NCBI RefSeq assembly: GCF_030486405.1
Contig: NZ_CP129613.1
Span: forward strand, 2,728,001 to 2,792,000
Length of the DNA: 64,000 bases
Direction: 5' to 3'
Origin: Mycolicibacterium sp. HK-90
Lineage (GTDB): Bacteria; Actinomycetota; Actinomycetes; Mycobacteriales; Mycobacteriaceae
Both the position numbers and the translations under genes were made by a program. Shown here one piece after another: positions 28,620 to 46,979 of this stretch; the first letter of the stretch is position 1, and each line of letters begins with the position of its first letter. The notes beneath the pieces were generated by a model. The model searched no databases. It saw nothing but the letters and a program-made list of their open reading frames with translations, and was not told the DNA's origin.

Positions 28620-29756
28620 GTGACCACCTACGCAGCAGCCTATACAGCGGAGAGGCCGTTCCACACCGCCCTGCTGGCGGAACTGGACAGCGCCGGGTCG
28701 GCCTTCCGGCACATCACACCGAACTGGTTCGCCTCCGTGATGGGCACCGGGATCGTCGCGACGGCGGCGGCGACCCTGCCGCTGCGGGCGCCGGGCCTGC
28801 ACGAATTCGCCACCGCGGTATGGATTCTCGCCGGCATCGTGCTGGTGGTGCTGACAGCCGCGTTCGGCACGCATTGGGTCCGGCACCGCGAGCAGGCGAA
28901 AGCCTATGCCGCACACCAGGTGGTGGGCCAGTTCTACGGAGCTCCGGCGATGGCCTTGCTCACCGTCGGAGCGGGTGCGCTGCTGCTGGGCCCGCCGATC
29001 ATCGGTCCATCCGCGGCCCTGGCCGTCGACGTGACGCTGTGGACTGCCGGCACGGTGCTGGGATTGGTTGTGGCTCTGTGGCTTCCGTTCGCGATGATGA
29101 CCCGTGAGGATCACACCGATGTGGAGGCGGTGCCGGCCTGGATGATGCCGGTGGTCTCACCCATGGTCTCGGCGTCCACCGGCGCCCTGCTGATGTCGCA
29201 CCTCGGCCCGGGCCAGGCGGGCCTGACCTTGTTGGTGGCCTGCTACGCGATGTTCGGCCTGAGCCTGCTGGCCGGCCTGATCACCACCACGATGGTGTAC
29301 TCACGCCTGATGCACGGCGGCTTCGGCGAGGTGCGGGCGATCCCGACGGTCTGGATCCTGCTCGGCGTCGTCGGCCAGTCCGTCACGGCGGCCAACCTGT
29401 TGGCGTCCCATGCCGGGTCGGTGCTCATGGATCCCTCCATCGTGTCGGCGCTGCATGCCTTCGGCATCGTCTATGGCCTGGTGATGGGTGGTTTCGGGGC
29501 CTTCGTCTTCTGCCTGGCGACGGCGCTGACGGTGCACGCCGCACGCCAGGGATTGTCGTTCAGCCTGACCTGGTGGAGTTTCACCTTCCCCGTGGGCACC
29601 TGCGTCACGGGTGCGTCCGCGCTCGGCGCGGCCACCGGCGCCGTCGTGATCTCCTGGCTCGCGGTCGCGCTGTACGTTCTGCTGCTCGGCGCGTGGGCGA
29701 CGGTCGCCACCAACACCGTCGGCGGCCTGCGGTCGGGCCGGTTGTTGCGCGGCTGA
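28620..29756 (+). CDS. TDT-family (TehA/Mae1/SSU1) transporter
   Basis: A 378-residue protein with ten hydrophobic helices. ITPNWFASVMGTGIVATAAATLPL at the first helix is the family signature of C4-dicarboxylate/tellurite/sulfite (TDT) transporters. The substrate could be malate, sulfite or another anion and cannot be chosen from sequence. The GTG start follows GGTGAG. It is convergent with lysR; both promoters carry the same palindrome. Confidence 0.85.
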   Translation: MTTYAAAYTAERPFHTALLAELDSAGSAFRHITPNWFASVMGTGIVATAAATLPLRAPGLHEFATAVWILAGIVLVVLTAAFGTHWVRHREQAKAYAAHQVVGQFYGAPAMALLTVGAGALLLGPPIIGPSAALAVDVTLWTAGTVLGLVVALWLPFAMMTREDHTDVEAVPAWMMPVVSPMVSASTGALLMSHLGPGQAGLTLLVACYAMFGLSLLAGLITTTMVYSRLMHGGFGEVRAIPTVWILLGVVGQSVTAANLLASHAGSVLMDPSIVSALHAFGIVYGLVMGGFGAFVFCLATALTVHAARQGLSFSLTWWSFTFPVGTCVTGASALGAATGAVVISWLAVALYVLLLGAWATVATNTVGGLRSGRLLRG

Positions 29757-29821: not shown

Positions 29822-30763
29822 TCACTCTCGGGGATAGGAACCGATGTGGCTGAGCAGGTCGCGCACCGCCCCGGCCGGCGGGGTGCGTCCGCCCGACCAG
29901 ATGGCGCGCAGTTCGCGACGCAGATCGAGCCCGGCGATCGGCACTTCGCGTAAGCGGCCGAGGGTGAGGTCGTCCTCGACGGCCAGCCTGCTCATCACCG
30001 CCGGCCCGGCACCGGCCAGCACCGCGGCGCGCATCGCGGCGGCCGAGGAGAGTTCGATGGCGGGATCGGCCTGCCGGCTCGCGGGCCCCAGCGTGGCGCG
30101 CAACGCGGCGCTCAGGGCTTCCCTTGTGCCCGAACCGGATTCCCGCGAAACCAGCGCGGTGTCGTTCAGCTGGGCAGGGCTGACCGGTGCGGATCGCCGC
30201 GCCCATTTGTGATCCGGCGGCACCACGGTGACCAGTTCATCGTGGGCGATCACCCGGCTGCGCAGGCCTGTCGGTGCGCCGGGAGATTCGATGAATCCCA
30301 GGTCGGCTGAACCGTCGTGCACGGCGGCGATCACCTGATCACTGTTGGCCGCCGAGAGGATCACCCGTGGCGCGGACACCCCGCGGCGGGCGGCGTCGGC
30401 CTGCAGCGAAACCAACCAGCGGGGCATGAGTTGCTCGGCAATGGTCAGGCTGGCCGCCACGGTGATGCGACTGTGGCTTTCACTGCGCAGCGAAGCCAAC
30501 CCGGCATCCACACGCTGTGCGACGTCGAGCAACTGGTCGGCCCATTCGGCGACCACTGAGCCGGCCGCGGTCAGCCGAGATCCCCGGGGGCCGCGCTGCA
30601 CCAGCCGGACCCCGGTCTGGGCCTCGATCGAGGCCAGTCGCGAGGACACCGCCTGTTGGGTGAGACCGAGCTCACGTCCGGCCGCTCCGAGACTGCCGGT
30701 GCGCGCGATGGCCAGCAGCACCTCGAACGCTGCGAGCTCGGGCATCCGGGCGCTGAGCGGCAT
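29822..30763 (-). CDS. LysR-family transcriptional regulator
   Basis: A 313-residue regulator with N-terminal helix-turn-helix LLAIARTGSLGAAGRELGLTQQAVSSRLASIEAQTGVRLVQR and a LysR substrate-binding domain (GSADLGFIESPGAPTGLRSR; VSRESGSGTREAL). The ESGSGT segment resembles CysB/CbbR-type anion pockets. ATG 30763 is the first methionine before the conserved domain; the open frame beyond is not conserved. Its own promoter palindrome (30785-30803) suggests autoregulation and control of the convergent TDT gene. Confidence 0.88.
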   Translation of the reverse strand: MPLSARMPELAAFEVLLAIARTGSLGAAGRELGLTQQAVSSRLASIEAQTGVRLVQRGPRGSRLTAAGSVVAEWADQLLDVAQRVDAGLASLRSESHSRITVAASLTIAEQLMPRWLVSLQADAARRGVSAPRVILSAANSDQVIAAVHDGSADLGFIESPGAPTGLRSRVIAHDELVTVVPPDHKWARRSAPVSPAQLNDTALVSRESGSGTREALSAALRATLGPASRQADPAIELSSAAAMRAAVLAGAGPAVMSRLAVEDDLTLGRLREVPIAGLDLRRELRAIWSGGRTPPAGAVRDLLSHIGSYPRE

Positions 30764-30784
30764 GCCCAGGATGCTAGGTCGTGG

Positions 30785-30803
30785 CCACAAATCCTGCTTG
30801 TGA
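30785..30803. promoter_or_regulatory. Palindromic operator upstream of lysR
   Basis: CCACAAATCCTGCTTGTGA lies 22 bp upstream of the lysR start and 48 bp upstream of the aromatic leader peptide. Its inverted arms CACAA/TTGTG and its 17/19 identity with the site at 28545-28563 suggest a LysR box serving at least two promoters. Confidence 0.75.
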
Positions 30804-30837
30804 ACGCACCGGTTGTGGCGCTCGCGAGACTGTGGTG

Positions 30838-30843
30838 TACCGT
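30838..30843 (+). promoter_or_regulatory. Candidate -10 box for the aromatic leader transcript
   Basis: TACCGT fits the mycobacterial TANNNT -10 pattern and ends 7 nt before the GTG of the leader peptide at 30851, so the leader could be translated from a leaderless mRNA. Confidence 0.45.
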
Positions 30844-30850
30844 GGCCGAC

Positions 30851-30925
30851 GTGACTATCGGTGTGTGTGCCAGCTATTGGCGCTTTATCAAGGCTCCGGG
30901 CGGAGCCGATAAAGCGCAGCACTAA
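30851..30925 (+). CDS. Aromatic leader peptide (24 aa) for attenuation of the DAHP synthase gene
   Basis: GTG at 30851 opens a 24-codon frame reading VTIGVCASYWRFIKAPGG and ending at TAA 30925. It contains Tyr-Trp-Arg-Phe, one codon for each aromatic amino acid, immediately before and inside a strong hairpin. Ribosome stalling at scarce aromatic tRNAs could thus sense all three end products. C. glutamicum aroF has a comparable leader peptide (AroR). A second GTG in frame is at 30863. This is inference from codon content, structure and position. Confidence 0.75.
   Translation: MTIGVCASYWRFIKAPGGADKAQH
30880..30917 (+). promoter_or_regulatory. Attenuator hairpin overlapping the leader peptide
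   Basis: GCGCTTTATC (30880-30889) pairs with GATAAAGCGC (30908-30917), and GGCTCC (30892-30897) with GGAGCC (30902-30907), giving a 16-bp stem with an AA bulge and GGGC loop. The 5' arm starts at the last base of the Trp codon. GGCTCCGGG (30892-30900) can alternatively pair with CCCGGAGCC at 30937-30945, giving two mutually exclusive folds. Confidence 0.75.
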
Positions 30926-30946
30926 GCACGCATCCACCCGGAGCCC

Positions 30947-30981
30947 AGGCAGTGACCATCGGTCGCTGCCTTTCGTCGTTA
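30947..30981 (+). terminator. Terminator-like hairpin before the DAHP synthase gene
   Basis: AGGCAG-T-GACC (30947-30957) pairs with GGTC-G-CTGCCT (30961-30971) around an ATC loop and is followed by TTCGTCGTT. It is a weakly U-rich intrinsic terminator candidate located 59 bp before the gene start, where an attenuator terminator is expected. Confidence 0.5.
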
Positions 30982-31030
30982 CAGGGCGCCGGACGTTCAC
31001 CAGGTGCCCATACCAGGAAGGCACCCGAAC

Positions 31031-32083
31031 ATGAACGTGGCGCAGATCGCCAACGTCCCAGCCACATCGAACCGGCGCGTCCGTAGTTTCAGCGCGATTC
31101 CCAGCCCGCACGACGTGCTCACCGAGTTCCCGCTGGGGGAGCGTCGTGCCGAGCGGGTGGCGCGCGATCGCGACGAGATCGCCGACATTCTGGCGGGTCG
31201 TGACGACCGGCTGCTGGTGGTCGTCGGCCCGTGTTCGGTGCACGATCCCGCCGCCGCCCTCGAGTACGCCGGTCGGCTGGTCAAGGTGGCCGACGAGCTC
31301 AAAGACCAGCTCAAGATCGTGATGCGGGTGTACTTCGAGAAGCCGCGCACCACCATCGGCTGGAAGGGCCTGATCAACGACCCGGGCATGGACGGCACCT
31401 TCGACGTCGCCCGCGGCTTGCGGACCGCCCGTCAACTGCTCCTCGACATCATCGACATCGGCCTGCCGGTCGGGTGCGAGTTCCTAGAACCGACCAGCCC
31501 GCAGTACATCGCCGACGCCGTGGCCTGGGGCGCGATCGGCGCCCGGACCACCGAATCGCAGGTGCATCGTCAACTGGCGTCGGGGCTTTCCATGCCGGTC
31601 GGGTTCAAGAACGGCACCGACGGCAATGTCCAGGTCGCGGTCGACGGGGTGAAAGCCGCTGCCGCCGAGCATGTCTTCTTCGGCATGGACGATCTCGGCC
31701 GTGGTGCGGTGGTCAGCACCGCGGGCAACGAGGACTGCCATGCGATCCTGCGCGGTGGTACCGACGGACCGAACTACGGTGCCGAGGCCGTCACCGACGC
31801 CGCCGCCAAGCTGAGCGGCGCCGGCCTGCCCGGCCGAGTCGTGATCGATTGCAGCCACGCCAATTCCGGTAAGGACCACGTGCGCCAGGCATCGGTGGCC
31901 GCCGAGGTGGCCCAGCTGGTTCGCGACGGCCTGCCGATCAGCGGCGTGATGCTCGAGAGCTTCCTGGTGGCGGGCGCCCAGTCGCCCGAGGCCCGGCCGC
32001 TCACCTACGGTCAGTCGGTCACCGACAAGTGCATGGATTGGGAGGCAACCGATCTGGTGCTGCGAGAGCTCGCTCGCCGGTAG
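31031..32083 (+). CDS. Class I 3-deoxy-7-phosphoheptulonate (DAHP) synthase
   Basis: A 350-residue AroF/G/H-type enzyme with VVVGPCSVHDP, KPRTTIGWKGLINDP, GARTTESQVHRQLASGLS, VGFKNGTDG and VIDCSHANSGKDH, all characteristic of class I DAHP synthases that join phosphoenolpyruvate and erythrose 4-phosphate at the head of the shikimate pathway. Mycobacteria normally rely on a class II enzyme, so this is probably a second isozyme. ATG 31031 is preferred over GTG 31004 because AAGGAAGG precedes it. The leader-peptide attenuator upstream is the likely control. Confidence 0.93.
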   Translation: MNVAQIANVPATSNRRVRSFSAIPSPHDVLTEFPLGERRAERVARDRDEIADILAGRDDRLLVVVGPCSVHDPAAALEYAGRLVKVADELKDQLKIVMRVYFEKPRTTIGWKGLINDPGMDGTFDVARGLRTARQLLLDIIDIGLPVGCEFLEPTSPQYIADAVAWGAIGARTTESQVHRQLASGLSMPVGFKNGTDGNVQVAVDGVKAAAAEHVFFGMDDLGRGAVVSTAGNEDCHAILRGGTDGPNYGAEAVTDAAAKLSGAGLPGRVVIDCSHANSGKDHVRQASVAAEVAQLVRDGLPISGVMLESFLVAGAQSPEARPLTYGQSVTDKCMDWEATDLVLRELARR

Positions 32084-36772: not shown

Positions 36773-36887
36773 TCGAGCGGATGACGGGATTCGAACCCGC
36801 GACCCTCACCTTGGCAAGGTGATGCGCTACCAACTGCGCTACATCCGCGCGCCACGAGCGAGATCGTCGCCCGTCGCGATGCAGAAC
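36773..36887. repeat. Left 115-bp direct repeat containing tRNA-Gly (candidate att site)
   Basis: This segment is identical to 46795-46909 and the copies are 10,022 bp apart. It covers the whole tRNA-Gly gene and 39 bp of its upstream region. Weaker similarity continues beyond the right end (a shared TGCGCAG-CACAAATCC pattern), which could mean duplication rather than a simple integrase core. Confidence 0.85.
36776..36848 (-). tRNA. tRNA-Gly (GCC), left copy
   Basis: The reverse strand folds as a tRNA: acceptor GCGGATG/CATCCGC, D-arm, anticodon loop CTTGCCAAG (GCC) and T-loop GGTTCGAATCC. CCA is not encoded. It is identical to the copy at 46798-46870 and lies inside a perfect 115-bp direct repeat. 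Confidence 0.95.
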
Positions 36888-37064
36888 GGTAGCCCACCGA
36901 TGTGCGCAGGCACAAATCCCGCCCTCTGACTTGCTTTGTGGGGCAACGTAAACGATGTGCCTCAACGGATTGACAAGCCGTGACGTCGCGGTTCCGCTGC
37001 GCGGTACGTCCGGTGATCCGGATGCCGGTGGCGGGGGTCACAGCTCAGTTCGTAGGATTCCTGG

Positions 37065-38771
37065 ATGCCGCTCAACGTCGGTGAGACGTTCGCCGTGTTC
37101 CGGATCGTTCGTGTGCTGGGGTCAGGCGGGACGGGGGAGGTCTACCTCGCTCAGCACCCCCGGCGTCCTGGCATGGAGGCGCTCAGGGTGTTGCCCACGG
37201 ATTGGTCGGCCGAGCCCGGGTACCCGGAGCGGTGTGGGCTTGAGGCGGATCTGGCCGCCACCTTGTGGCATCCCAGCATCGCCAGGGTCCGTGGTCACGG
37301 CGAGCACGACGGACGGCTCTGGGTATCGGCGGACTTCGTCGACGGCACCGATCTCGCCGACCTCCTCGAGCAGCGATATCCCAATGGTCTGCCCCGCGAA
37401 CAGGTTTTCAGCATCATCACCGCGGTCGCCGGGGCCCTCGACTACGCACACAAGCACGGCGTGCTGCATCGTGACGTGAGGCCGGCCAACATCATCCTCA
37501 CCGGCATCGACGGGGAGGCGGAACAGCGTGCCGTTCTGGCCGACTTCGGTATCGCTCGCACCATCGGGGATCGGTCCGGCTATGCCGCACCCGAACAACT
37601 GGTGGGGGAGGACGTCGACGCTCGCGCCGATCAGTACGCCCTGGCCTGCACGGCCTACCACCTCTTGACCGGCACGCAACTGTTCGCGCACGCCAATCCC
37701 GCCGTTATGGTCAGCCGCCACGTCAACTCGAAGCCACCGGCATTGGCCGATACCCGGCCCGATCTGGCCGGCCTCGACCGGGTGCTGGCCATCGCCCTCG
37801 CCAAGAATCCGGCTGACCGATTCATCAGCTGCGGCGCGTTCGCCCACGCGCTGGCCGATGAAACCCCGATGCCCGCACTGACTTTGGCACCGCCCACGGC
37901 CGCACCGCCACCCGATCGGCGGACTCGGCTGCCCGAGAAGCCAAACTGGGTGCCGGTGGCGGCGGTCGCTGCCGTTGGCCTCGCCGCCAGTGTCGTTGTG
38001 GGGCAACTCGGGCCGTCCCCTGACGCCGCCGCCAGCGAACCGCCGAGCCAGCTGCCGAGCACCTCCATCGTCAACGCCCCAAACGTCGCGATGACCCCGT
38101 CACCCTCCGAGCCGGTCTTCGACGGCCTCTACCGCCTCGACTACGACAATGCCCACGCCACCCTCAACGCCAACCCGTGGCCGGCGGCGGGCAGCCAAAT
38201 CGCAAGCTACTGGTGGGCATTCCGATCGACCTGCAAACCCTCGGGATGCGTTGCGACGTCGACGCGCATGGACAGCGTCAACCGTGCCGTGCCCTACATC
38301 GAAGGCGGCGGCGTCATGACCGCCGTGTTCCGCTTCGTTAACAATGCTTGGCAGGGCGATCCGGCGAGAGGCTCGCTGCCCTGCGAGGCGCCGCTCATCG
38401 GTCAAGCCCAGGCCATGGACACGGCGTTGTCGTTGACGCCACAGCCTGACGGCGCGCTGGCCGGCGTGCAGACCACCACGATCCAATCCGGCGAGTGCGG
38501 CTTGCAAGGCGCGGTGATCACCGTGCCCGTCCACGCCACCCGGCTCGAAGACCGCCCACCGGGGGACGTGGTCGCCGATCCGGCCACGGTCCCGGATCCG
38601 CTGCCGCCGGCTCCTGCGCTTGCCCCACCGCTACCCCCGCCGCCTGGGCCTCCGGTACCCGCGCCTCCGCCTCCGCCTGCGCCCGTTGGGGAGGTGCTCC
38701 CGGCTCCGTCCATCGGCCCGATCATGCCGCCACCCGGCGCGCCGCCGCCACCGCCACCGCCCGCGCCGTAA
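37065..38771 (+). CDS. Membrane Ser/Thr protein kinase-like protein with atypical lysines
   Basis: A 568-residue protein with kinase domain 9-265: glycine loop GSGGTGEVYLA, Glu60, HRDVRPAN (135-142), DFG (160-162), APE (175-177). The ATP-binding lysine position is Arg41 (MEALRVLP) and the HRDxK lysine is Arg139, so activity may be reduced or absent. One transmembrane helix (about 297-318) leads to an extracellular domain FDGLYRLDYDNAHATLNANPW with paired cysteines, then a proline-rich tail. TAGGAT lies 6 nt before the ATG (leaderless). It is the first gene in the island. Confidence 0.85.
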   Translation: MPLNVGETFAVFRIVRVLGSGGTGEVYLAQHPRRPGMEALRVLPTDWSAEPGYPERCGLEADLAATLWHPSIARVRGHGEHDGRLWVSADFVDGTDLADLLEQRYPNGLPREQVFSIITAVAGALDYAHKHGVLHRDVRPANIILTGIDGEAEQRAVLADFGIARTIGDRSGYAAPEQLVGEDVDARADQYALACTAYHLLTGTQLFAHANPAVMVSRHVNSKPPALADTRPDLAGLDRVLAIALAKNPADRFISCGAFAHALADETPMPALTLAPPTAAPPPDRRTRLPEKPNWVPVAAVAAVGLAASVVVGQLGPSPDAAASEPPSQLPSTSIVNAPNVAMTPSPSEPVFDGLYRLDYDNAHATLNANPWPAAGSQIASYWWAFRSTCKPSGCVATSTRMDSVNRAVPYIEGGGVMTAVFRFVNNAWQGDPARGSLPCEAPLIGQAQAMDTALSLTPQPDGALAGVQTTTIQSGECGLQGAVITVPVHATRLEDRPPGDVVADPATVPDPLPPAPALAPPLPPPPGPPVPAPPPPPAPVGEVLPAPSIGPIMPPPGAPPPPPPPAP

Positions 38772-38942
38772 CCCCCGGCCAGGTGGCATCCGGAACTCCG
38801 GCCTACGCCGAGAAGTCGCGTCACCGGCGACCTGCCGAAGCGGCGGAGAGCCCGACCTACGGCGAACTAGATGTCCGCAAAAGCGATTTGCCGGCAAAGG
38901 AATTGGGGACCGCCCGGCTGCGGCCAATCGGCGCGGGGGACT

Positions 38943-38964
38943 GACGGGCCGAGCTCGGCCCGTC
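38943..38964. terminator. Perfect 22-bp palindrome between convergent genes
   Basis: GACGGGCCGAG is followed immediately by its reverse complement CTCGGCCCGTC. It lies between the kinase stop and the end of the oppositely oriented ESX cassette, so it may act as a bidirectional terminator. There is no T-tract. Confidence 0.45.
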
Positions 38965-38977
38965 ACAATCCGAAGCG

Positions 38978-39133
38978 TCAGTCGGTGACCACGCTGACGC
39001 TGGTATCGTCCGGTAGCGTCGCCTCCACATCGGCACCGCCATCAACCGGTTGCAGGACGGCGGCGACCTTGCCGAGATCGAGCGGATTGGTCTGGACGCC
39101 GCCGGGCTCTGGGTTCGCCTTATAGGCGAGGGA
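38978..39133 (-). pseudogene. In-frame extension beyond the stop of the 69-aa cassette gene
   Basis: Directly after the TGA at 39134-39136 the same frame stays open for 51 codons (SLAYKANPEPGGVQTNPLD ... VSVVTD) and ends at TGA 38978. The composition is protein-like, so the TGA may be a nonsense mutation that truncated an originally about 121-residue protein. It could equally be chance or read-through sequence. Confidence 0.4.
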
Positions 39134-39343
39134 TCACCTCTCGTGGATGAAGAACATCCCAAAGGAATCCGGTCGTACGTGAACGCGTGTCTCTTTTCCA
39201 TCGACCATGGCCGTCAAATAGCACCAACCGCCGGGGGGTGTTCCTGTGACAAGTTTGACCACGTGTTCCACCAGAGCATCTTCTGGCAGCTCCAGATTGA
39301 CTGGAGCGCCGTGCGGACCGACGAATGACAGAAGATTAGTCAT
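39134..39343 (-). CDS. Small protein at the end of the ESX cassette
   Basis: A 69-residue protein, MTNLLSFVGPHGAPVNLELPED..., with no recognised domain; it is short, mildly acidic and beta-prone. The start overlaps the preceding membrane-protein gene by 8 nt (ATGACTAA), so translation is coupled. It may serve as a partner or immunity protein of the cassette. The frame continues after the stop, which suggests truncation. Confidence 0.55.
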   Translation of the reverse strand: MTNLLSFVGPHGAPVNLELPEDALVEHVVKLVTGTPPGGWCYLTAMVDGKETRVHVRPDSFGMFFIHER

Positions 39344-39626
39344 CAGTCTTCACCGTTCGTTTGCGAAGCGTCCACAAGAGGTGGCCGACGCCGTAGATTC
39401 CCGTCGCGGCGCCCAGCACGACGGTGGTGGTGCTGACCCGCGAGGAAAATACCACGCCGATCCAGCACGAAATAGACATAGCAATCATGGCCAACGCAGA
39501 AGCGAGGTGTGTACGTTGCACAAGCTGTGGGCGCTCCGGCGTACCCCGGCGCATACCCCAGGTGATCGCAATACCAATAGCAAGTCCCGCGAGAATTGCC
39601 AATGTTAAAGCTCCCATGGGAGTCAT
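39336..39626 (-). CDS. Small membrane protein of the ESX cassette
   Basis: A 96-residue protein with three hydrophobic helices (ALTLAILAGLAIGIAITWG, ALAMIAMSISCWIGVVF, TVVLGAATGIYGVGHLLW). No family recognised. ATG 39626 overlaps the stop of the 281-residue ESX-type protein (ATGA) and its own stop overlaps the next start, giving strict coupling. An inner-membrane immunity or anchoring role is possible but unproven. Confidence 0.65.
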   Translation of the reverse strand: MTPMGALTLAILAGLAIGIAITWGMRRGTPERPQLVQRTHLASALAMIAMSISCWIGVVFSSRVSTTTVVLGAATGIYGVGHLLWTLRKRTVKTDD

Positions 39627-40468
39627 CCGCAATGCCTCATCTCGTTCAACGAATTGACTACCAGCGCGCCACCGCTGAGGATCATGGGAAAGGTGCCTCC
39701 AAGGGTAAACGGCATGCCAGCTATACCAATTGCCACACCAGCGGTACCGGCAAGCGTTTGGCCAATATTGTTCCACACGTCGATGTTGTCGCAGTTGGGG
39801 AACATAGGGTCAGGGCTGGCGTCGATAACGGTGGGTTCCTTGGGTTGCGGCTCGGTTTTGATGACCGGCGGCTCCCAGTCGTCGTCGGCTCCGTCTTGCT
39901 TGAATCCACCCCAACTGGCGGCTTGGATCGTCGTATCCCCGAACCGGATACCGTCAAGTTCAGTCGCCTTTCCTTGAAGGCGTTGACCGACAAGAGAATC
40001 CGTCTGTAGAAGCTGTTCAGCGTGCCATCGAATGTTTTCGGCGTGTTCGGCCAGCGCCCGGTTCCGACTCTGAATCGTGGCGATGTCATAGCGGCGTCCG
40101 TCGGTGACCGTCAGATTGTCGGCGACCTTGAAACCATCCGCCTCGGCTTCGCTGATGGCCGTCAGCGTAGCGTTCTTGGCGGTGTTGATGTCGTGGGCGC
40201 CGTTCTCGGCGAGGTTGGCGGCTTCACGCTGCACCTGTCCGTGGTGTTGGGCCACGCCAACGTCTGCCGTCACTCGGTCGTATGCGGCATCCCGGGCGGA
40301 GCCCGACCAATCAGCGCCGCCCACAGCATTGCGGTGTTGGTCGAACAAGCTGTCAGCGCTGTCAGCTGCCGCCCGCCACCGTGCTGCCGCCCTGGTGAGA
40401 TGGTCCGTTTTCCAGGCCGCTATCCCCGAACGGGTGGATATCGCCGTTGGCGCTGCGACCGCATTCAT
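39623..40468 (-). CDS. WXG-type type VII secretion substrate, possible effector
   Basis: A 281-residue protein whose first 175 residues are helical with a Trp-Ser-Gly turn (GADWSGSARDAAYDRV, W54), like WXG100/EspA-type ESX substrates. A linker rich in proline and acid residues precedes a hydrophobic C-terminal segment (VWNNIGQTLAGTAGVAIGIAGMP) that could insert into membranes. The upstream EspC-like partner overlaps it by 4 nt. An antibacterial or host-directed effector role is inference from this architecture. Confidence 0.7.
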   Translation of the reverse strand: MNAVAAPTAISTRSGIAAWKTDHLTRAAARWRAAADSADSLFDQHRNAVGGADWSGSARDAAYDRVTADVGVAQHHGQVQREAANLAENGAHDINTAKNATLTAISEAEADGFKVADNLTVTDGRRYDIATIQSRNRALAEHAENIRWHAEQLLQTDSLVGQRLQGKATELDGIRFGDTTIQAASWGGFKQDGADDDWEPPVIKTEPQPKEPTVIDASPDPMFPNCDNIDVWNNIGQTLAGTAGVAIGIAGMPFTLGGTFPMILSGGALVVNSLNEMRHCG

Positions 40469-40737
40469 AGCGTCCTCGAAATCTGGTCGCCACCCTCGCC
40501 ATCGGTCGTGGTGTACGTGGCAGCGCTGGCGTATATCAGGCCGGCGTTCTCAGACACGCGCTCAGATTGGCGTGCCTGTATGGCAGTCAGGGCGGCGTCA
40601 AGGGCGCTCACCCCAGCCTCGCTTGGCTGGCTACCTGATGCGCCGGCCACAGGGCCAGCCGCAAGATCCCCAGCAACTACATCGCCTTGTGCCGCTGCCG
40701 CGCGCAGCGAATCAGCGTCGACCTGCATATCTACCAT
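40465..40737 (-). CDS. EspC/DUF2580-like type VII secretion protein
   Basis: A 90-residue protein of the ESX-associated EspC-like type: a VDADSLRAAAAQGDVVAGDLAAG helix, a second helix LDAALTAIQARQSERVSENAGLIYASA and the secretion motif YxxxD (Y75-TTT-D79) near the C-terminus. Such proteins are co-secreted with a larger partner, here the next gene. ATG 40737 follows a strong GGGGGGTG sequence. It starts the four-gene cassette. Confidence 0.75.
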   Translation of the reverse strand: MVDMQVDADSLRAAAAQGDVVAGDLAAGPVAGASGSQPSEAGVSALDAALTAIQARQSERVSENAGLIYASAATYTTTDGEGGDQISRTL

Positions 40738-41185
40738 GTACACCCCCCGGTTGATCTTGACGTTATCACCCTTCGCGGACGACACGGGCAACCCTCGGCG
40801 ACCAAAAATCGGTGCGCCGTGGGTTCATTGTTGGTTGGAGTGTTAGAGCTCGCGGCCGAGAATCCCGCCTAGCCCGGGGAGTGGCCGAGATGCAAGCCGC
40901 CGTCCGTAATCTCGGTGCTTGGCGCGTGGGAAGTTGCGGAACGGGACGGCTGGCTTGCCCCAATCGCCATCGCGGCTTTCCCACTCGCCGAGTATGACGG
41001 TATCGACGGGGCGGCAAGGGTATGCGTTTCGCGAACACCCTTTAACCGCACGGGTATCCGCCACCGTGGAGGAACCTCTGTAGGTAAGGGTGTCGGCCGC
41101 CGTGGATGCCCTTATGGCGGTGGGGCGTACATGATGGGGCATGGTTCCAGTACCCCCATATAGGGGTTACCTGAAACGTAGTTGC
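40738..41185. other. Intergenic stretch before the ESX cassette
   Basis: These 448 bp hold no gene that can be supported. The left end must carry the promoter of the ESX cassette. At 41149-41167 ACCCC-CATATA-GGGGT forms a small inverted repeat upstream of the zinc-ribbon gene and could be an operator. Several AAGGGT words recur at about 41014-41096 without a clear pattern. Confidence 0.5.
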
Positions 41186-41488
41186 ATGGATATTGCATGC
41201 GAACCCGAGGGGGTGGCCACGTGCCGTTCCTGTCGGCGCGCCCAGCGGGCCGCCACACCGCCGAGACCCCCAGCCACGCGCCGCTGCAACATCTGCGGCG
41301 TGTCGGTCCTCAGCCCGCACCAGATATGTAACCAGCACAAGGGATTACGCCGCCGAACCTGCCGCTGGTGCGGCACCGACTTCATCGGCCCCCGCGGCAC
41401 CAACTGCTGCAGCGACGCCTGTCGCCAGGCCGGGCGTGACAAATCGCCGGAGCTTCGCCGGACCGCTATGGGGTCGCGGAGATGTTGA
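41186..41488 (+). CDS. Small multi-zinc-ribbon protein
   Basis: A 100-residue protein with four cysteine pairs: CRSCRR, CNICGVSVLSPHQIC-NQH, CRWCGTDF and CCSDACRQAG. The pattern CxxC-x-CxxC suggests two zinc ribbons of a nucleic-acid-binding type seen in phage and island genes. The function is unknown. It overlaps the convergent next gene by 23 bp. The basic, Arg-rich composition fits nucleic-acid contact. Confidence 0.55.
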   Translation: MDIACEPEGVATCRSCRRAQRAATPPRPPATRRCNICGVSVLSPHQICNQHKGLRRRTCRWCGTDFIGPRGTNCCSDACRQAGRDKSPELRRTAMGSRRC

Positions 41489-42245
41489 GACCTGCCCGAC
41501 GTTCGTAGAGTTGCATCGCTTGGGTGACGAACTGGGTCGCACCGTAGAGCGCGAAGTCGAAACCGTCTTCATCGAAGAGATGGGGGTTCGGGCGCTGCGT
41601 GTCCAGCCAGAAGTAACCATGTGCAGCGGCTGAGCCCATCCGCCACAGCTGCAGCACGGCGAACCCATCCGTGCTGTTGACGGCCACCATCTTCTGCAGC
41701 ATCGACACGGTGTCGGGCGGTGGGTTCAGCTTGGTCGCACCCAACGCCGTCGCCCGGGCCTCCAGCGCCGTCATCTGACTCGCGAACTCGGATACGATCT
41801 GCTGCCGCTGCTGTTCCAATTCCGCGTTCGCGGGCTTGCTGGAAAGCGTGTTGAACGCCTTGCGCTGTTCGTCTAGGTTCACATGCCCGATCTGGAGACC
41901 TCGAAGCTGCCGCTCAACGGACGAGTTGGGCTCCAACAGCCACCGCACCCGAACGGAAGACATCAGGACGGTCCGCAGAGCCGTTAGAGGCGCGTAATGA
42001 CGCATCGGCTCATCGCTGACCATCGCATCCACTACCGAGCCCAGATGGTCCAGCGCCATGACAATGCCGTGGTGCGCCACTTTTGACGTCTCCGACTCGA
42101 TGGCATCGTCGGCTGCTAGATCACTGCCCGGACGAGGGCGACGATCCACTCTCCCCTTGATGGTCCACGGATCACCGACATCCCGAACCCACTGCACGAC
42201 ACGACGCCGCGGTCCTCTGTCCAAGTACACGCCACACAGTTTCAC
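41466..42245 (-). CDS. Unrecognised helical island protein (possible HEPN-like)
   Basis: A 259-residue, mostly helical cytoplasmic protein. HHGIVMALDHLGSVVDAMVSDEP, APLTALRTVLMSSVRVRWLLEP and RMGSAAAHGYFW are reminiscent of DUF5677/HEPN-like four-helix proteins, but no catalytic RxxxxH motif is certain. The frame begins with GTG at 42245. It is divergent from the membrane-anchored gene 42300-42938. Confidence 0.6.
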   Translation of the reverse strand: MKLCGVYLDRGPRRRVVQWVRDVGDPWTIKGRVDRRPRPGSDLAADDAIESETSKVAHHGIVMALDHLGSVVDAMVSDEPMRHYAPLTALRTVLMSSVRVRWLLEPNSSVERQLRGLQIGHVNLDEQRKAFNTLSSKPANAELEQQRQQIVSEFASQMTALEARATALGATKLNPPPDTVSMLQKMVAVNSTDGFAVLQLWRMGSAAAHGYFWLDTQRPNPHLFDEDGFDFALYGATQFVTQAMQLYERRAGLNISATP

Positions 42246-42299
42246 CCGACTGGCCGACAGCTTGCCCGATACCCGGAGTCCCCGCCTATCGTGTCAGCC

Positions 42300-42938
42300 A
42301 TGGCGGACGCTGTTGGTATTGCTGGGTTGATCATCGGCGGCGTCGGAAGCGCCGCAGGTGTCGGCGCGCTGGTGTACGCCCACATCGCCAACGCCAACGC
42401 CAAGAAGTCGGGCAAGGCGGCCGACGACAGCAAGCAGCTGGCGGAACAGGCGAACGACTTGGCGCGTGAGTCCAACACCATCGCTACCGATGCCCGCCAG
42501 CTGGCCGAGGAAGCCAACGAGTTCAGTCGGCGCGGTGAAGCCCGCGAGACGGAACGCCACGACGTGCACTGGGAAGGCGACTGGGACCGGCCAGGCCGCT
42601 ACGTGCTGAGCAAACTGGGCGACGACGAGGCTCACGCCGTTACCGCCACCGTCGTGTACGACGGGGAGCGCGCGACGCAGCGAGCCGACATCATCACCGA
42701 CAACGGCCACCAACTGATCTTCGAGTTCTCCACCGCCGTCAGGGACTTCCGCGATGAGGTCCGCGACCACCGACGACGCCGCGAGGCCGACACGACGGGC
42801 CTGGGCTTGGGCTCTACGTGGGGCATGAATGTCCATCGCGTCGATCACCGCGTCGAATGGACGACGCCGAAGGGCAATCCCAGGCTGCACGAGGACGGCG
42901 GCCTGACGATGTTCGATCACTTCTACCCGGACAACTGA
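42300..42938 (+). CDS. Membrane-anchored coiled-coil protein of unknown function
   Basis: A 212-residue protein with an N-terminal membrane helix (VGIAGLIIGGVGSAAGVGALVYAHI), a coiled-coil stretch (KQLAEQANDLARESNTIATDARQLAEEANEF) and a beta-rich soluble domain beginning HDVHWEGDWDRPGRYVLSKLG. No family recognised. A TATCGT box 7 nt before ATG 42300 suggests a leaderless transcript. An envelope sensor of the island is conceivable. Confidence 0.65.
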   Translation: MADAVGIAGLIIGGVGSAAGVGALVYAHIANANAKKSGKAADDSKQLAEQANDLARESNTIATDARQLAEEANEFSRRGEARETERHDVHWEGDWDRPGRYVLSKLGDDEAHAVTATVVYDGERATQRADIITDNGHQLIFEFSTAVRDFRDEVRDHRRRREADTTGLGLGSTWGMNVHRVDHRVEWTTPKGNPRLHEDGGLTMFDHFYPDN

Positions 42939-43168
42939 CCAACCGTCACCACCCGATGACATGGGACAAGGGGGGGTGGGGTCAAATCTCTGCCCGGTCC
43001 CCGCCGCCCCTCCGCCCGGTTAGGGGTCATACCCCCCGAGGGCGGAAAGTGAACAAAACACGTGTTCGCGGGGATGCCGCCAGGAAGGTGCAGCAATAGG
43101 TTCGGCCGGCGGTCGTTGCGCCTGGTCGGGCTACGTGTGGTGACGGCGTCCAAGACCGTCGTGCGTGT

Positions 43169-43504
43169 TCACTTTTCGGCCAATCCGCTGTTGTCCGCGG
43201 GCCAGTACAGGTAGGTGACCAGCGCTTGCATCTCGCCACTTTCGGCTGACCCCGAAGCGCTGTCCACCACCACGTGTTCGAGCTGTTCTCCAGGCCTGAG
43301 CAGATTGGCCTCGATGTACTGCCAGGCGAGCCATTGAAGCTGATCGTAGGGTGCGTAGGGCAGCATGATGGTGGTCTGCTCGGTCTTCGCCTTGGGCATG
43401 GTGGGCATTGTCGCTTGCAACTGACGTTGGCTGGGCGGCTTCTGCGAGGTCGGCGCAGGTTGTGCCGTCGCTGGTTCGATACGCAATTGCGCCCCACAGG
43501 TCAC
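43169..43504 (-). CDS. Hypothetical protein
   Basis: A 111-residue frame starting with GTG; the later part (TTIMLPYAPYDQLQWLAWQYIEANLLRPGEQLEHVVVDSAS) looks globular. The N-terminal 35 residues are low-complexity and the true start may be one of the two internal ATGs (MPTMPKAK). It is divergent from the 272-residue gene, with 22 bp between starts. No family recognised. The 230 bp before it (42939-43168) hold only an AACACGTGTT palindrome and an inverted pair AAAGTGAACA/TGTTCACTTT. Confidence 0.5.
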   Translation of the reverse strand: MTCGAQLRIEPATAQPAPTSQKPPSQRQLQATMPTMPKAKTEQTTIMLPYAPYDQLQWLAWQYIEANLLRPGEQLEHVVVDSASGSAESGEMQALVTYLYWPADNSGLAEK

Positions 43505-43526
43505 ACACCGCCGCTACCGTGGGGGC

Positions 43527-44345
43527 GTGGCGGCTACGGGGTTGGAGGTGCGACTGCACCAGGGCCGCGAGCGTGCCGAGGTGTCGAAATTCGCCCGCAC
43601 GCTCGATGAGATCGTGCTGTCGCTGCGCGAGGTTGACCAGGTGTATCTGCTGCGCGGTACCCGCGCCACCTGGGTGTTGGACCGGGTGGAGCATCAGCGT
43701 GATGACCTGGTGGTGCGGTTGGGGCCGCGCAATGTGCCGTCGGGCCGCGATGTATCGGACATGATGGTGCCGGTCCAGGCGCTGGTGGATGGCGCTGAGG
43801 TGCTGCAGGAACACGCGGCGGTCCCAGAGTTGTTCGCGCCCAAGACCGTAACGAGGTTGGCCAAGCTCGCTACCCCGACGGGTGGGGTGCAGGGGGTATC
43901 GCTGGCCACGTACAACGGCAAGACGCGCGACCTGGTGGAACTGGACAACGCGGTGCGGGACAACGCCATCGCCGCGGTGAATCCCATCCAGATTGCCTAC
44001 GGGTCGGTGACGGGCACATTGTCGGCCCTGCGTCACGTGCAGCGACGCCAAGGCGGGGTGCAGGTGACGGTGCGTGACGACTTGGAGCGCCGGGCCATCA
44101 CGGGTGTCGTTGGGGAGTCGCAGGCCGAGCAGTTGCGGCCGTTGTGGCGGCATCGGGTGCAGCTGAGCGGCATCATCAAGCGCAACGGCAGCGGCCAGGC
44201 GATTCGTATCGACGTGGACAGCATCGAGCAGATGCCCGAGGACAACAGTGGGAGACCATCGACGGCCGAGCTGCTGGGTGTTGCGTCGGGCTGGCTGGGT
44301 GACATGACGGTGGACGACTACATCGCGGAGCTGCGTAATGGCTAA
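43527..44345 (+). CDS. Partner protein of the PIN nuclease (possible antitoxin)
   Basis: A 272-residue protein: helix-rich N-terminal half (KFARTLDEIVLSLREVDQVYLL), then a beta-rich segment QLSGIIKRNGSGQAIRIDVDSIEQMPED resembling an OB or small-barrel fold, and a tail DDYIAELRNG typical of antitoxin C-termini. The gene overlaps the PIN gene by 8 nt and both are tightly coupled. TACCGT 6 nt before the GTG suggests a leaderless start. It may neutralise the PIN nuclease, but it is unusually large for an antitoxin. Confidence 0.65.
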   Translation: MAATGLEVRLHQGRERAEVSKFARTLDEIVLSLREVDQVYLLRGTRATWVLDRVEHQRDDLVVRLGPRNVPSGRDVSDMMVPVQALVDGAEVLQEHAAVPELFAPKTVTRLAKLATPTGGVQGVSLATYNGKTRDLVELDNAVRDNAIAAVNPIQIAYGSVTGTLSALRHVQRRQGGVQVTVRDDLERRAITGVVGESQAEQLRPLWRHRVQLSGIIKRNGSGQAIRIDVDSIEQMPEDNSGRPSTAELLGVASGWLGDMTVDDYIAELRNG

Positions 44346-44868
44346 GGCCAAAAGTGAACTGCCGCCAGTGATCTACGTGGACACCTGCGTGTACATCGAC
44401 GTGTTGACTCAGGAACCCACACTGCACCCTGAGACCGAGGAACCGCGTTGGAAAAGCGCAAAAGCGTTGCTGGACGCGGTGAATGACGGGCGGGTGGTGT
44501 TGGCTACATCATCTTTGGTCGACGCGGAGGTGGGCAGTTTCGCGACGCTGCGCGACGACGGCGACACGTTCCTCAAGAAGGTGCGCGGCTGGTTCGACGC
44601 GCCGCCTCCCGGCACCCGCTACGTCGAGGTTGACCGGATGATCGCTCGGGACGCCGAACGGTTGCAGAAGGCATGGAGGCCGCATGCTGCGCCAGGTAAG
44701 AAGATGAATGGTGCTGATGCGGTCCACTTGGCGGCGTCGGTCAGGCTTAAATGCGACTACCTGATGACGGGTGACGGTGGTTTCCCCGTGGGTCACACAG
44801 TGGATGGCGTGAAAGTTCGTTACGCCGAGTCGGTTTGGCCGCAGACCATATTCGATGAGCTAGGTTAG
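44338..44868 (+). CDS. PIN-domain ribonuclease (possible toxin)
   Basis: A 176-residue PIN protein with the acidic cluster D15 (VIYVDTCVYID), E64 (SSLVDAEVG), D127 (NGADAVHLAASV) and D146 (YLMTGDGGF). This is the metal-dependent ribonuclease fold used by VapC toxins, although it is longer than typical VapC (about 130). Its ATG overlaps the upstream partner gene by 8 nt. Confidence 0.8.
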   Translation: MAKAKSELPPVIYVDTCVYIDVLTQEPTLHPETEEPRWKSAKALLDAVNDGRVVLATSSLVDAEVGSFATLRDDGDTFLKKVRGWFDAPPPGTRYVEVDRMIARDAERLQKAWRPHAAPGKKMNGADAVHLAASVRLKCDYLMTGDGGFPVGHTVDGVKVRYAESVWPQTIFDELG

Positions 44869-44887
44869 CCACTCCAGCGAGGGGTGG

Positions 44888-44961
44888 TGGGGCGGGCGGG
44901 GCTCGAACCCGCGACCTCCGGATTATGAGTCCGTGGCTCTGACCGTCTGAGCTACCGCCCC
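44888..44961 (-). tRNA. tRNA with CAU anticodon (Met or lysidine-type Ile)
   Basis: On the reverse strand the 74-nt gene has acceptor GGGGCGG/CCGCCCC, an anticodon loop CTCATAA (CAT) and T-arm GCGGG-TTCGAGC-CCCGC. The discriminator A and an encoded CCA (44885-44887) follow. It lies inside the island between the PIN gene and the iterons, so it may be an accessory tRNA rather than the housekeeping methionine tRNA. Confidence 0.9.
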
Positions 44962-45011
44962 CTGTTCGGTGGTGAACTTACCGTCGCCCGTCTGTCGCCG
45001 CTACGAATCGA

Positions 45012-45059
45012 CGCATTTGCACTGATCTGCGCATATGCGTACAAGCGCGCATATGCGTA
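45012..45059. repeat. Three iterons with 18-bp spacing
   Basis: CGCATTTGC at 45012, CGCATATGCG at 45030 and CGCATATGCG at 45048 repeat every 18 bp; the last two belong to a 13-bp direct repeat GCGCATATGCGTA (45029-45041 and 45047-45059). Each full unit is a palindrome. They lie just upstream of the small genes preceding the recombinase and may be an operator, replication iterons or arm-type recombinase sites. Confidence 0.7.
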
Positions 45060-45111
45060 ATCACGTTGCACCCCTTGGTATTTCGTGGCGCAAGAGCTAC
45101 CGTCACCCACC

Positions 45112-45447
45112 ATGAAGAACAACTATTGCCCACCAATCACCATTCCCGGGCCGTCGCGGATCGCGGCCGACCGGCTGGCCACCGCGGCTCGACCAGGGAC
45201 CGTTCGCGACATCCTGACCGACTATGCCGACCAGCTGACCACCGCGGGCGCGTTCGCCGACGTGACGGCCCGCGACGCCCGCGCCATCGCGGCGGTTATG
45301 GCGTGGGACTGCTGCCACGGCGGTGAATCCACCGCGCTGCGGCAGCGAGCCGCCGCCGTCACCGCAGGCGCGTGGGGTGGCTGGGACAGCCCCACGGGGG
45401 TGGTGCGCGCGTTTACCATCGCGGCGACCGTCTTGGACGCGCTGTGA
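45112..45447 (+). CDS. Small island protein upstream of the recombinase
   Basis: A 111-residue protein, helical, with RIAADRLATAARPGTVRDILTDYADQLTTAGAFADVTARDARAIAAVMAWDCCHGGE. No family recognised. ATG 45112 lies 8 nt after a TACCGT box; a GTG at 45085 is in frame upstream. It starts an overlapping three-gene run that ends in the recombinase, so a role in regulating or directing recombination is possible. Confidence 0.6.
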   Translation: MKNNYCPPITIPGPSRIAADRLATAARPGTVRDILTDYADQLTTAGAFADVTARDARAIAAVMAWDCCHGGESTALRQRAAAVTAGAWGGWDSPTGVVRAFTIAATVLDAL

Positions 45448-45629
45448 CGGCCCGCGGGCTGGCCGCGCTGGCTGAGCGGGCCGGATTCGATCTGTGGGTG
45501 TACCGCGACACCGCCGAGCTGTTCACCGCATGGGTGCCGGTCGTGCCGTCGTACTCCGGATCCGTTGCAGGGTGCTGGGATTGGCTGGCCGACCGGCTGG
45601 CCCAAGACAGTGAGGGGTCGGCACGATGA
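45444..45629 (+). CDS. Small island protein in the recombinase run
   Basis: A 61-residue protein beginning VTARGLAALAERAGFDLWVYRD. The GTG overlaps the preceding stop (GTGA) and its own stop overlaps the recombinase ATG (ATGA). No family recognised. Confidence 0.55.
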   Translation: MTARGLAALAERAGFDLWVYRDTAELFTAWVPVVPSYSGSVAGCWDWLADRLAQDSEGSAR

Positions 45630-46495
45630 GCGGCCCCGCACCCTTGCCGCTACCGGAACCGTGGCGCGAACTGGTCGAGGCGTTCATACGTGCTGAGACT
45701 GCGGCCGGCCGGTAGCCCGCCACCGTCCGCAAGCGTCGCAGCGACCTGGGCAGGCTGGCCCGCAGTGTGGGAGGTGACCCACGGGGCGTGACGGAGGCGC
45801 AGCTGGAGGCGTGGTTAGAACGAAACCGCCACTGGGCCATAGAGACCCGCCGCAGCCACCGCAACACCACCGTGACGTTCTTCCGGTGGGCACACCGCAA
45901 AGGCCACATTCCCACCGACCCCGCGGCCGAGCTGCCGGTGGTGCGACCCGCCACCGCTGTGCCGCGACCTGCTCCAGATGCCGCGTGGCGACACGCGATC
46001 CAGGTGGCCGACCCACGGACGCGGCTGATGCTGCGGTTGGCGGGGGAGGTGGGTCTGCGTCGCGCTGAGGTGGCGCAGGTACATACCCGCGACCTGACGA
46101 CCGGCGCGGGCGGTCCCCAGCTGCTGGTCCACGGGAAGGGCGGAAAGCTGCGCGTGGTGCCGCTGACCGACGACCTGGCCGACCTGATCGCCCAGGGGGC
46201 ACCGGGTCACAGCCCGGAGATGGCGGCGTACGGGGTGGACGGGTGGTTGTTCCCCGGCGACGACAACGGCCACTTGCCACCCGTATGGGTCGGCAAGATG
46301 GTCGCTGCGGTGCTGCCGGGCATCTGGACGATGCACACCCTCCGTCACAGGTTCGCGACCCGCGCCTATCGCGGCACGGGCAATCTGCGCGCGGTGCAGA
46401 CGCTGCTGGGTCACTCGTCGGTCGCCACCACCGAGCGGTACACCGCGGTGGACCACGACGAGGTGCGAGCCGCGATGATGGCGGCACTCGACTGA
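45626..46495 (+). pseudogene. Tyrosine recombinase interrupted by an in-frame TAG
   Basis: Frame from ATG 45626 reads MSGPAPLPLPEPWRELVEAF...TAAGR, meets TAG at 45713-45715, then continues in the same frame PATVRKRRSDLGRLARSVGG and a complete tyrosine recombinase. Catalytic residues are intact: Arg in GEVGLRRAEV, Lys in GKGGKLRVVP, HTLRHRF, LLGHSSVATT and the nucleophile in TTERYTAV. The interruption lies in the N-terminal core-binding domain, before residue 31. Translation from GTG 45767 would omit about 47 residues, so the protein is probably inactive or altered. Confidence 0.8.
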
Positions 46496-46604
46496 TGTCG
46501 GCCCGTCTGAGCAAATAACCCCGCAGCTAACCCTCAGTGGATTGTTGGGGGCACGCGGTGTTTTCAGCGGACTAAAAATAGCGTCTGAGATGGCGAAACT
46601 CTGG

Positions 46605-46676
46605 TGCGCGATACTGGGATTGAACCAGTGACCTCTTCCGTGTCAGGGAAGCGCTCTCCCGCTGAGCTAATCGCGC
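46605..46676 (-). tRNA. tRNA-Val (GAC)
   Basis: The reverse strand gives acceptor GCGCGAT/ATCGCGC, anticodon loop CTGACAC (GAC), T-arm CACTGGTTCAATCCCAGT-type and an encoded CCA (46602-46604). It lies 109 bp downstream of the recombinase stop, in the Gly-Cys-Val tRNA cluster. Confidence 0.93.
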
Positions 46677-46696
46677 GGGTTGAAACTCTTACTTGG

Positions 46697-46767
46697 AGGT
46701 GGAGACGGGAATCGAACCCGTGTGCACGGCTTTGCAGGCCGTTGCCTCACCACTCGGCCACTCCACC
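46697..46767 (-). tRNA. tRNA-Cys (GCA)
   Basis: A 71-nt gene on the reverse strand with acceptor GGTGGAG/CTCCACC, anticodon loop CTGCAAA (GCA) and U73 discriminator. It is between tRNA-Val and the right tRNA-Gly. Confidence 0.93.
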
Positions 46768-46794
46768 GCTGGGGTTGATGCCACAATCGCACCT

Positions 46795-46909
46795 TCGAGC
46801 GGATGACGGGATTCGAACCCGCGACCCTCACCTTGGCAAGGTGATGCGCTACCAACTGCGCTACATCCGCGCGCCACGAGCGAGATCGTCGCCCGTCGCG
46901 ATGCAGAAC
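46795..46909. repeat. Right 115-bp direct repeat containing tRNA-Gly
   Basis: Perfect copy of 36773-36887. The right copy is separated from the recombinase gene by tRNA-Val and tRNA-Cys, which is awkward for a simple att interpretation and favours either a recombination-driven duplication or a carried tRNA copy. Confidence 0.85.
46798..46870 (-). tRNA. tRNA-Gly (GCC), right copy
   Basis: Identical to the tRNA-Gly at 36776-36848 and first in a Gly-Cys-Val cluster read right to left. That cluster order is the usual one in mycobacteria as I recall it, so this is probably the ancestral copy. Confidence 0.95.
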
Positions 46910-46979
46910 ATTAGTCCACGGACGTGCGCAGACACAAATCCCCATTACGGGAGGGCAACGGGCGGCCAAAAATGGTGTT

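Follow-up and report, generated by a model that had tools for sequence, protein, structure and literature searches.

A leader peptide with aromatic codons and a putative helix relay to the ribosome site of a mycobacterial class I DAHP synthase gene

Analysis of the region that precedes the class I DAHP synthase gene in the window, i.e. the whole stretch of 64,000 nucleotides analyzed here, suggests a ribosome-mediated attenuator in which a pause on the aromatic codons of a leader peptide would be relayed through the helices P2, P4, P6 and P5 to the ribosome site of the gene; on the basis of sequence comparison and modelled folding we assign this reading a probability of about two in three. As the entry enzyme of the shikimate pathway, DAHP synthase catalyses the first step in the formation of aromatic amino acids. 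The mRNA would start at or next to the GTG of the leader, which would be translated at once. As long as charged aromatic tRNAs are plentiful, the ribosome would pass the YWRF codons, and P2 would be prevented, initially by the ribosome and then by P1, leaving CCCGGAGCCC free for downstream pairing as P4; with P4 formed, the ribosome site would be held in P5 and expression would be low. Scarcity of Tyr-, Trp- or (less surely) Phe-tRNA would make the ribosome wait on TAT TGG CGC TTT, where it covers the 5' arm of P1; P2 would then form and exclude P4, GGGCGCC would pair as P6 with GGTGCCC, and P6 would withdraw GGTGCC from P5, uncovering the ribosome site for high expression. The direction of the modelled relay is the one that physiology calls for: a stall would bring P2, P2 would shut out P4, P6 would take over from P5 and the site would open. 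P3 would stand outside the switch by strand competition; its probable effect is to reduce or pace transcription whether or not the ribosome stalls. We infer that stalling takes place in vivo, that the transcript is leaderless and that P6 displaces P5, the last being in our view the weakest step of the mechanism. A fuller version, according to which one pause on the Tyr-Trp-Phe block is passed on via P1, P2, P4, P6 and P5 with P3 as a mere hinge, acts mainly on translation, reads all end products and is widespread in actinobacteria, is put forward tentatively, at something under even odds.

Table 1. Features of the leader region and the gene behind it (positions in the window)
Feature	Position	Strand	Composition or basis
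TACCGT, -10 box (TANNNT)	30838..30843	+	7 nt before leader start codon
Leader peptide ORF, GTG...TAA	30851..30925	+	VTIGVCASYWRFIKAPGGADKAQH*; 24 codons; relatives have related leaders
Probable sensor codons TAT TGG CGC TTT (Tyr-Trp-Arg-Phe)	30875..30886	+	codon position, codon choice
P1, leader hairpin	30880..30917	+	30880-30889/30908-30917 and 30892-30897/30902-30907
P2	30892..30945	+	GGCTCCGGG (30892-30900) with CCCGGAGCC (30937-30945), exact complement; alternative to P1 and P4
P4	30938..30992	+	CCGGAGCCC (30938-30946) with GGGCGCCGG (30984-30992); one inner mismatch
P3, terminator-like	30947..30980	+	11-bp hairpin 30947-30971, loop ATC, T-rich tail TTCGTCGTT (30972-30980)
P6	30984..31009	+	GGGCGCC (30984-30990) with GGTGCCC (31003-31009); alternative to P4 and P5
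P5	31003..31025	+	GGTGCC (31003-31008) with GGCACC (31020-31025); encloses ribosome site
AGGAAGG, ribosome-binding site of DAHP synthase gene	31015..31021	+	
Class I 3-deoxy-7-phosphoheptulonate synthase gene (aroF/G/H family)	31031..32083	+	TIGR00034

The gene was correctly named as a class I DAHP synthase in the original prediction: its product matches TIGR00034 with 493 bits, starts from the ATG at 31031 and is 97% identical to the M. houstonense enzyme (80 of 116 relatives were retained). The genome carries a single DAHP synthase of each class, I and II. A divergent LysR-type regulator gene (29822–30763, minus strand) adjoins the leader, with a TehA/TDT-like transporter gene (28620–29756, plus strand) beyond it, and six tRNA genes recognized by Rfam are spread over 36776–47673; the Rfam gathering search of the window returned tRNAs only and no match at the leader.

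The 24-codon frame with its Tyr-Trp-Arg-Phe string had been read correctly base for base. Its start codon is preceded by a TANNNT box, and so are the start codons of related leaders: among 217 leader-like loci the box lies at 7 nt in 188, at 6 nt in 22 and at 8 nt in 2, the start codon being picked among in-frame candidates with TANNNT 5–9 nt away. These 212 boxed loci represent 182 distinct leader regions, some species being counted twice. The five others (L070, L072, L073, L075 and L081) are proteobacterial and, having no box at 5–9 nt, were discarded as chance matches. The box scan covered 237 of 238 loci, L077 being too short; 20 of the 237 gave no match in the leader scan, and inspection of these revealed a divergent or broken leader in L022 and L097 (Trp to Arg), L061–L064, L066, L069, L079, L175 and L232, and no leader in L058, L065, L067, L068, L071, L074, L076, L078 and L080. 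The usual distance between a -10 box and the transcription start places the mRNA start at the first codon of the leader; combined with the near-fixed spacing of the box, this suggests that the transcript is leaderless and starts at about 30850–30851. Leaderless mRNAs are described as common in mycobacteria in passages of PMC4633059.

Stalling of the ribosome on the aromatic codons, as originally proposed, is backed by the composition of the leaders, by their codon choice and by the fit of these codons to the limit of P2 formation. In a motif-based scan, 137 of 141 distinct leaders contain Tyr, Trp and Phe, a count that is partly circular because the scan required aromatic motifs. Numbered from the Ala of the APG-type motif in 156 distinct leaders (3 of 159 peptides lacked this anchor and were omitted), aromatic residues occur at codon -6 in 146, -5 in 133, -4 in 27 and -3 in 149, so that 455 of all 492 fall between -6 and -3. 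Codon choice within the block (TAT 151:TAC 6, TTT 160:TTC 11) is the reverse of that in 59 enzyme genes (TAT 7:TAC 285, TTT 4:TTC 520). The TTT codon is part of P1, whose pairing may hold it; TAT is outside all named helices. Rare, wobble-read codons would provide the early hesitation that a sensor requires, and sensing by stalling at the aromatic codons appears well supported by these comparisons.

The position of the ribosome was modelled with masks, which are crude, the edge being given in nucleotides past the first base of the A-site codon. The mask was slid over the nascent RNA of the window from codon 7 to codon 24; within codons 7–22, edge +9 allows P2 only at codons 9–12 (Y, W, R, F). 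In this mask model P4 forms at codons 13 to 22 and P2 again at codons 23–24 or at the stop codon; a shorter window RNA also permits P2 at codons 3 and 8. The permissive stretch becomes codons 8–11 at edge +12 and 7–10 at +15, both of which leave the Phe codon outside. The idea that one peptide senses all three end products thus holds at +9 and fails for Phe at +12 or +15; in the model the Phe codon lies just at the border of the permissive window and its sensing is less sure than that of Tyr and Trp. Otherwise the sensor is so placed that stalling would free P2 and passage would block it. Among 144 leaders at edge 9, P2 forms with the ribosome at codon -3 in 135 of 141, at -2 in 19 of 141 and at -1 in 1 of 141. 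Only this downstream boundary is sharp; upstream of codon -7 many leaders permit P2 as well, among them 92 of 141 with the ribosome at -8 and 83 of 137 at -10. Altogether, 418 of 439 aromatic codons are P2-permissive at edge 9 against 772 of 1691 others, the aromatic count dropping to 312 of 439 at edge 12 and 277 of 439 at edge 15. The M. tuberculosis ribosome is said, in passages of PMC13236596, to mask about 26 nt.

Each hairpin of the original prediction was recovered: the 16-bp hairpin overlapping the sensor codons (P1, with 10+6 pairs and two unpaired As on the 5' side, formed in the window without a modelled ribosome), the perfect alternative pairing (P2), the second hairpin with its tail (P3) and the GGTGCC/GGCACC pair around AGGAAGG (P5), which in this species has an extra outer stem. 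P4, which encloses P3 and is alternative to P2 and P6, and P6 itself are pairings absent from that list. The folded region has a stability z of -5.84, and 0 of 200 dinucleotide shuffles were equally stable. Comparison of 58 distinct Mycobacterium sequences shows 98.3% paired cells for P1, 100% for P2, 99.4% for P3, 96.6% for P4, 97.4% for P5 and 94.3% for P6, against 36–55% in slid controls of the two whole structures. P2 is invariant across these sequences and, because the helix bases are nearly all invariant, Mycobacterium alone offers little covariation. In an alignment of 38 diverse sequences, from which 11 named rows had been excluded for their irregular structure (which favours the tally), P2 and P3 together have 49 cells changed on both sides in 10 pairs, most of them in P3, as compared to 13.1 +- 5.5 in shuffles and at most 10 in slides. 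For P2 alone there are 11 such cells in 3 pairs (shuffles 2.9 +- 1.4, 0/500; slides at most 3) and for P1 alone 28 in 9 pairs (shuffles 10.2 +- 2.6, 0/500; slides at most 19). The shuffles leave relatedness in, related sequences are not independent and the genome samples overlap; read with this, the covariation supports P1, P2 and P3.

The downstream pairings were assessed by swapping: the pairing between the regions of one sequence was compared with that of regions exchanged between sequences (2000 permutations), in one version with the P2 region placed with the help of P2 itself and in a second with P3 located independently. With 42 diverse sequences, P2, P4 and P6 gave 0/2000 in both versions and P5 gave 0 and 4/2000; none of six controls fell below 500/2000 in the first version, and in the second version the control of the leader with the region after P3 gave 21/2000. 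With 19 more distant sequences, the counts out of 2000 in the two versions were 0 and 0 for P2, 1 and 0 for P4, 0 and 6 for P6, and 16 and 173 for P5, and those of the controls 10 and 17 for the leader with the ribosome site and 280 and 13 for the leader with the region after P3. From these counts, P4 appears firm, P6 good and P5 firm only among the nearer relatives. Shuffling each sequence separately, we obtained p<=0.05 for P4 in 135, for P6 in 105 and for P5 in 77 of 187 regions (of 188 distinct ones, L061 having no usable start). Strands that have changed and are still complementary occur in Arthrobacter L063 (P4 CTTCAGAGCC/GGTTCTGGAG, P6 CCGGCGGG/CCCGCCGG), in Brachybacterium L069 (P4 CAGAGCC/GGCTCTG, P5 GGGTCC/GGACCC) and in L218 (P5 GAGTGCC/GGCACTC). 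The leader segment that forms P2 also beat swapped partners with the ribosome-site region and with the region after P3, both of which were intended as controls.

Folding of the window at rest places the ribosome site inside a helix (P5 0.98). A stall at Tyr or Trp exchanges P4 for P2 while P5 remains at 0.98, and opening of the ribosome site then costs 6.86 (Tyr) and 6.85 (Trp) instead of 7.07 kcal/mol, almost no change; P6 was not seen replacing P5 in equilibrium folding of the window. Lower costs that the relay does not predict are 5.83 kcal/mol for a ribosome at the stop codon and 4.60 kcal/mol for one at Phe (P2 0.06, P4 0.83). Masked folding was extended to 180 of 188 distinct regions. 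Here a Trp stall raises mean P2 from 0.25 to 0.84 and mean P6 from 0.17 to 0.33, and lowers P4 from 0.49 to 0.05 and P5 from 0.60 to 0.46; the opening cost falls by more than 0.5 kcal in 78 of the 180 and rises in 23, the corresponding numbers for a Tyr stall being 74 and 32. Since transcription proceeds from 5' to 3', P6 has the chance to form while the 3' strand of P5 has yet to be made. Folding of nascent RNAs shows mean P6 rising from 0.59 to 0.84, by more than 0.2 in 64 of 180 with a fall in 6, which lends the modelled relay support and does not amount to proof.

A serious possibility, somewhat short of an even chance, is mixed control, in which termination at P3 would be modulated without strand competition (by coaxial P2 on P3, by Rho or by ribosome-polymerase coupling) in addition to translational control via P5. 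Conservation of both the terminator-like hairpin and the P4/P6/P5 chain speaks for it, as does the position of P2, which in the window ends 1 nt before P3. Of three stems of at least 9 bp with a T-rich end found on both strands of the 64 kb, P3 looks the most terminator-like, with a tail that resembles that of E. coli rrnB T1; a consensus terminator scan of 30700–31100 did not list it. Averaged over 84 rows of the main Mycobacterium clade, the 8 nt past the stem contain 4.0 Ts; the mean is 5.0 for 19 others and 6.3 for genus g11 (9 rows). Such tails, together with the conservation and covariation of P3, would suit classical transcription attenuation as in trp, P3 being an intrinsic terminator that P2 prevents on stalling; passages of PMC11802643 describe C. 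glutamicum aroR as transcriptional, and M. tuberculosis ilvB1 operates in this manner according to passages of PMC13236596. We nevertheless consider such control rather unlikely. P2 and P3 have no base in common in the window, and P3 stays at 0.99 in every masked state computed there. A classical antiterminator was sought among upstream partners of both P3 strands and none was found beyond chance: a competitor reached p<=0.05 in only 1 and 2 of 187 regions, and the strands' own upstream pairing was below swapped pairing. As no upstream segment competes for P3, no classical antiterminator is seen, i.e. none that shares a strand with the terminator as in a classical transcription attenuator. The original prediction had left open which fold is the antiterminator; P2 does form on stalling in the model, but what it excludes is P4. 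Moreover, Ts past P3 are few in 5 Rhodococcus/Nocardia-like rows (1.6; the P3 call is doubtful there) and in 6 Micrococcales rows (2.3), all of which keep the leader. The string TTCG[TC]C is found at the end of P3 (window 30970–30980) in 103 of 187 distinct regions, including rows without a T-run.

Arrest by the nascent peptide, with YWRFIxAPGG stalling the ribosome in response to a ligand, would explain why the stretch from Tyr to APGG is conserved; it is very improbable, since the aromatic block differs by clade (YWRF, YFWF, YYWF, WRFYF, WFTYA, YPYF), most residues before it are variable, and APGG is accounted for by the GCTCCGGG pairing. Least probable of all is a conserved but unregulated 5' region with structure for mRNA stability only, which gives no reason why codon choice is reversed or why the aromatic codons agree with the P2 limit.

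The element proposed here as a ribosome-mediated attenuator with a relay to the ribosome site follows its enzyme closely. Class I DAHP synthase (E <= 1e-60) is encoded by 90 of the 248 genus genomes; in the family sample the figure is 211 of 251, and in the class sample 58 of 296. Within the genus, allowing up to 2 mismatches, the leader pattern is found in 89 of 248 genomes, all 89 of which carry the enzyme (lists compared by eye), and none of the 158 genomes that lack the enzyme holds the pattern before another gene. The first refuting condition of the original prediction, absence of the YWRF frame or hairpins from related genomes, was not borne out: the leader pattern is present in 89 of the 90 enzyme genomes of the genus. 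In one of these (G173) leader and enzyme are on different contigs, and the sole enzyme genome without the pattern (G055) has a leader in which Tyr is replaced by Met (L191). The upstream regions retrieved came from a subset of the enzyme genomes, covering 19 of the 26 family genera with the enzyme (31 were sampled) and class-sample loci; a leader was seen in 19 of the 19 family genera examined, with aromatic blocks such as YWRF, YWRFF, YFWF, YYWF, WRFYF and others, and also in Promicromonospora, Arthrobacter and Brachybacterium. In another family (f21) all 16 rows have a leader, 12 of them without Trp; 11 of these belong to one genus (g68, putatively Micromonospora). The 16 leaders of f21 (within L258–L276) retain the -10 box and an APGG- or ALGG-type motif, and in the g68 rows P3 is followed by CTTCGTCATGAG and not by a T-run. 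No leader was seen in the f18 rows L266, L269 and L274. The core GGCTCCGGGNGGAGCC has its only exact match in the genome at this locus; with up to 2 mismatches it occurs at 51 places, as against 169 for the reversed control.

The aroR-aroF attenuator of C. glutamicum was reportedly treated by Neshat et al. in 2014. According to passages of PMC11802643 and PMC4046766, aroR precedes aroF, contains Phe-Tyr-Phe and responds to limitation of Phe, not of Tyr, at the level of transcription; a passage of PMC7356990 calls the control translational. Like aroR, the leader of the window is a short aromatic ORF before a class I DAHP synthase gene, whereas it unites Tyr, Trp and Phe in one block and ranges over many genera. 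The Phe-Tyr-Phe string of aroR is found in two rows of a putative Corynebacterium genus, L233 (MRMWRFYF) and L224 (MRNWRFYF), and both have the same GGCTCCGG/CCGGAGCC pair of leader with downstream sequence, followed by a hairpin, as in the window. On the strength of WRFYF combined with the same RNA core, we take the leader of the window to be a relative of aroR, probably of common origin. The P4/P6/P5 chain present in the window was not seen by eye in rows L232 and L233 of that genus. The attenuators of E. coli trp, pheA and ilvGMEDA likewise have a leader peptide with codons for the product, mutually exclusive helices and an effect set by the position of the ribosome; the window differs from them in having no antiterminator that shares a strand, a leaderless start as suggested by the -10 box, and three aromatic products together. 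The trp and pheA attenuators are also covered in passages of PMC11802643.

Among mycobacterial systems, leaderless cysteine-rich uORFs are described in passages of PMC4633059 and PMC13236596 as acting by translation attenuation, stalling being said to unmask the ribosome site. They resemble the leader of the window, itself a predicted leaderless uORF, in having product codons, and differ from it in the amino acid and in the proposed helix relay. The ilvB1 attenuator of M. tuberculosis, with four sensor codons (LVVI) and a terminator/antiterminator pair according to passages of PMC13236596, is likewise a mycobacterial sensor-codon leader peptide, the terminator/antiterminator pair being its own. 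The uORFC-13-1 motif before aroF, given in passages of PMC8632094 for Acholeplasma and environmental sequences with a terminator-type model, is likened here by description only, as a uORF before a DAHP synthase gene. Passages of a 2005 survey of actinobacterial amino-acid genes (PMC1262725) state that no conserved RNA structures were found before Phe and Tyr operons. While aroR-type leaders and translation attenuation of mycobacterial cysteine genes are already known, searches of open-licence papers turned up neither the YWRF leader and its range nor the P4/P6/P5 chain.

One leader architecture thus precedes class I DAHP synthase genes across the 19 family genera examined and in some further actinobacteria, and what may be a logic of single codons covering three amino acids together can be put to the test there. 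The way in which the sensor codons agree with rare synonymous codon use and with the calculated P2 limit would make it a clean system for locating the mRNA edge of the stalled mycobacterial ribosome, and it suits the question whether attenuation can be relayed over about 130 nt to translation. Natural variants of the leader occur. In L175 (genome G154) a deletion has taken away the leader stop together with the 3' arm of P1, so that P2 remains as a tight hairpin; under the proposed model this leader would be locked on. Other variants are a stop directly after YWRFI in L108, Trp to Arg in L022 and L097, and Tyr to His in L190. In M. houstonense (L002, 757–1516 and 1783 onward) the leader and the first ~160 codons of the DAHP synthase gene occur as a tandem duplicate, the first 660 of 760 compared bases being identical, and L082 also has two copies of the leader.
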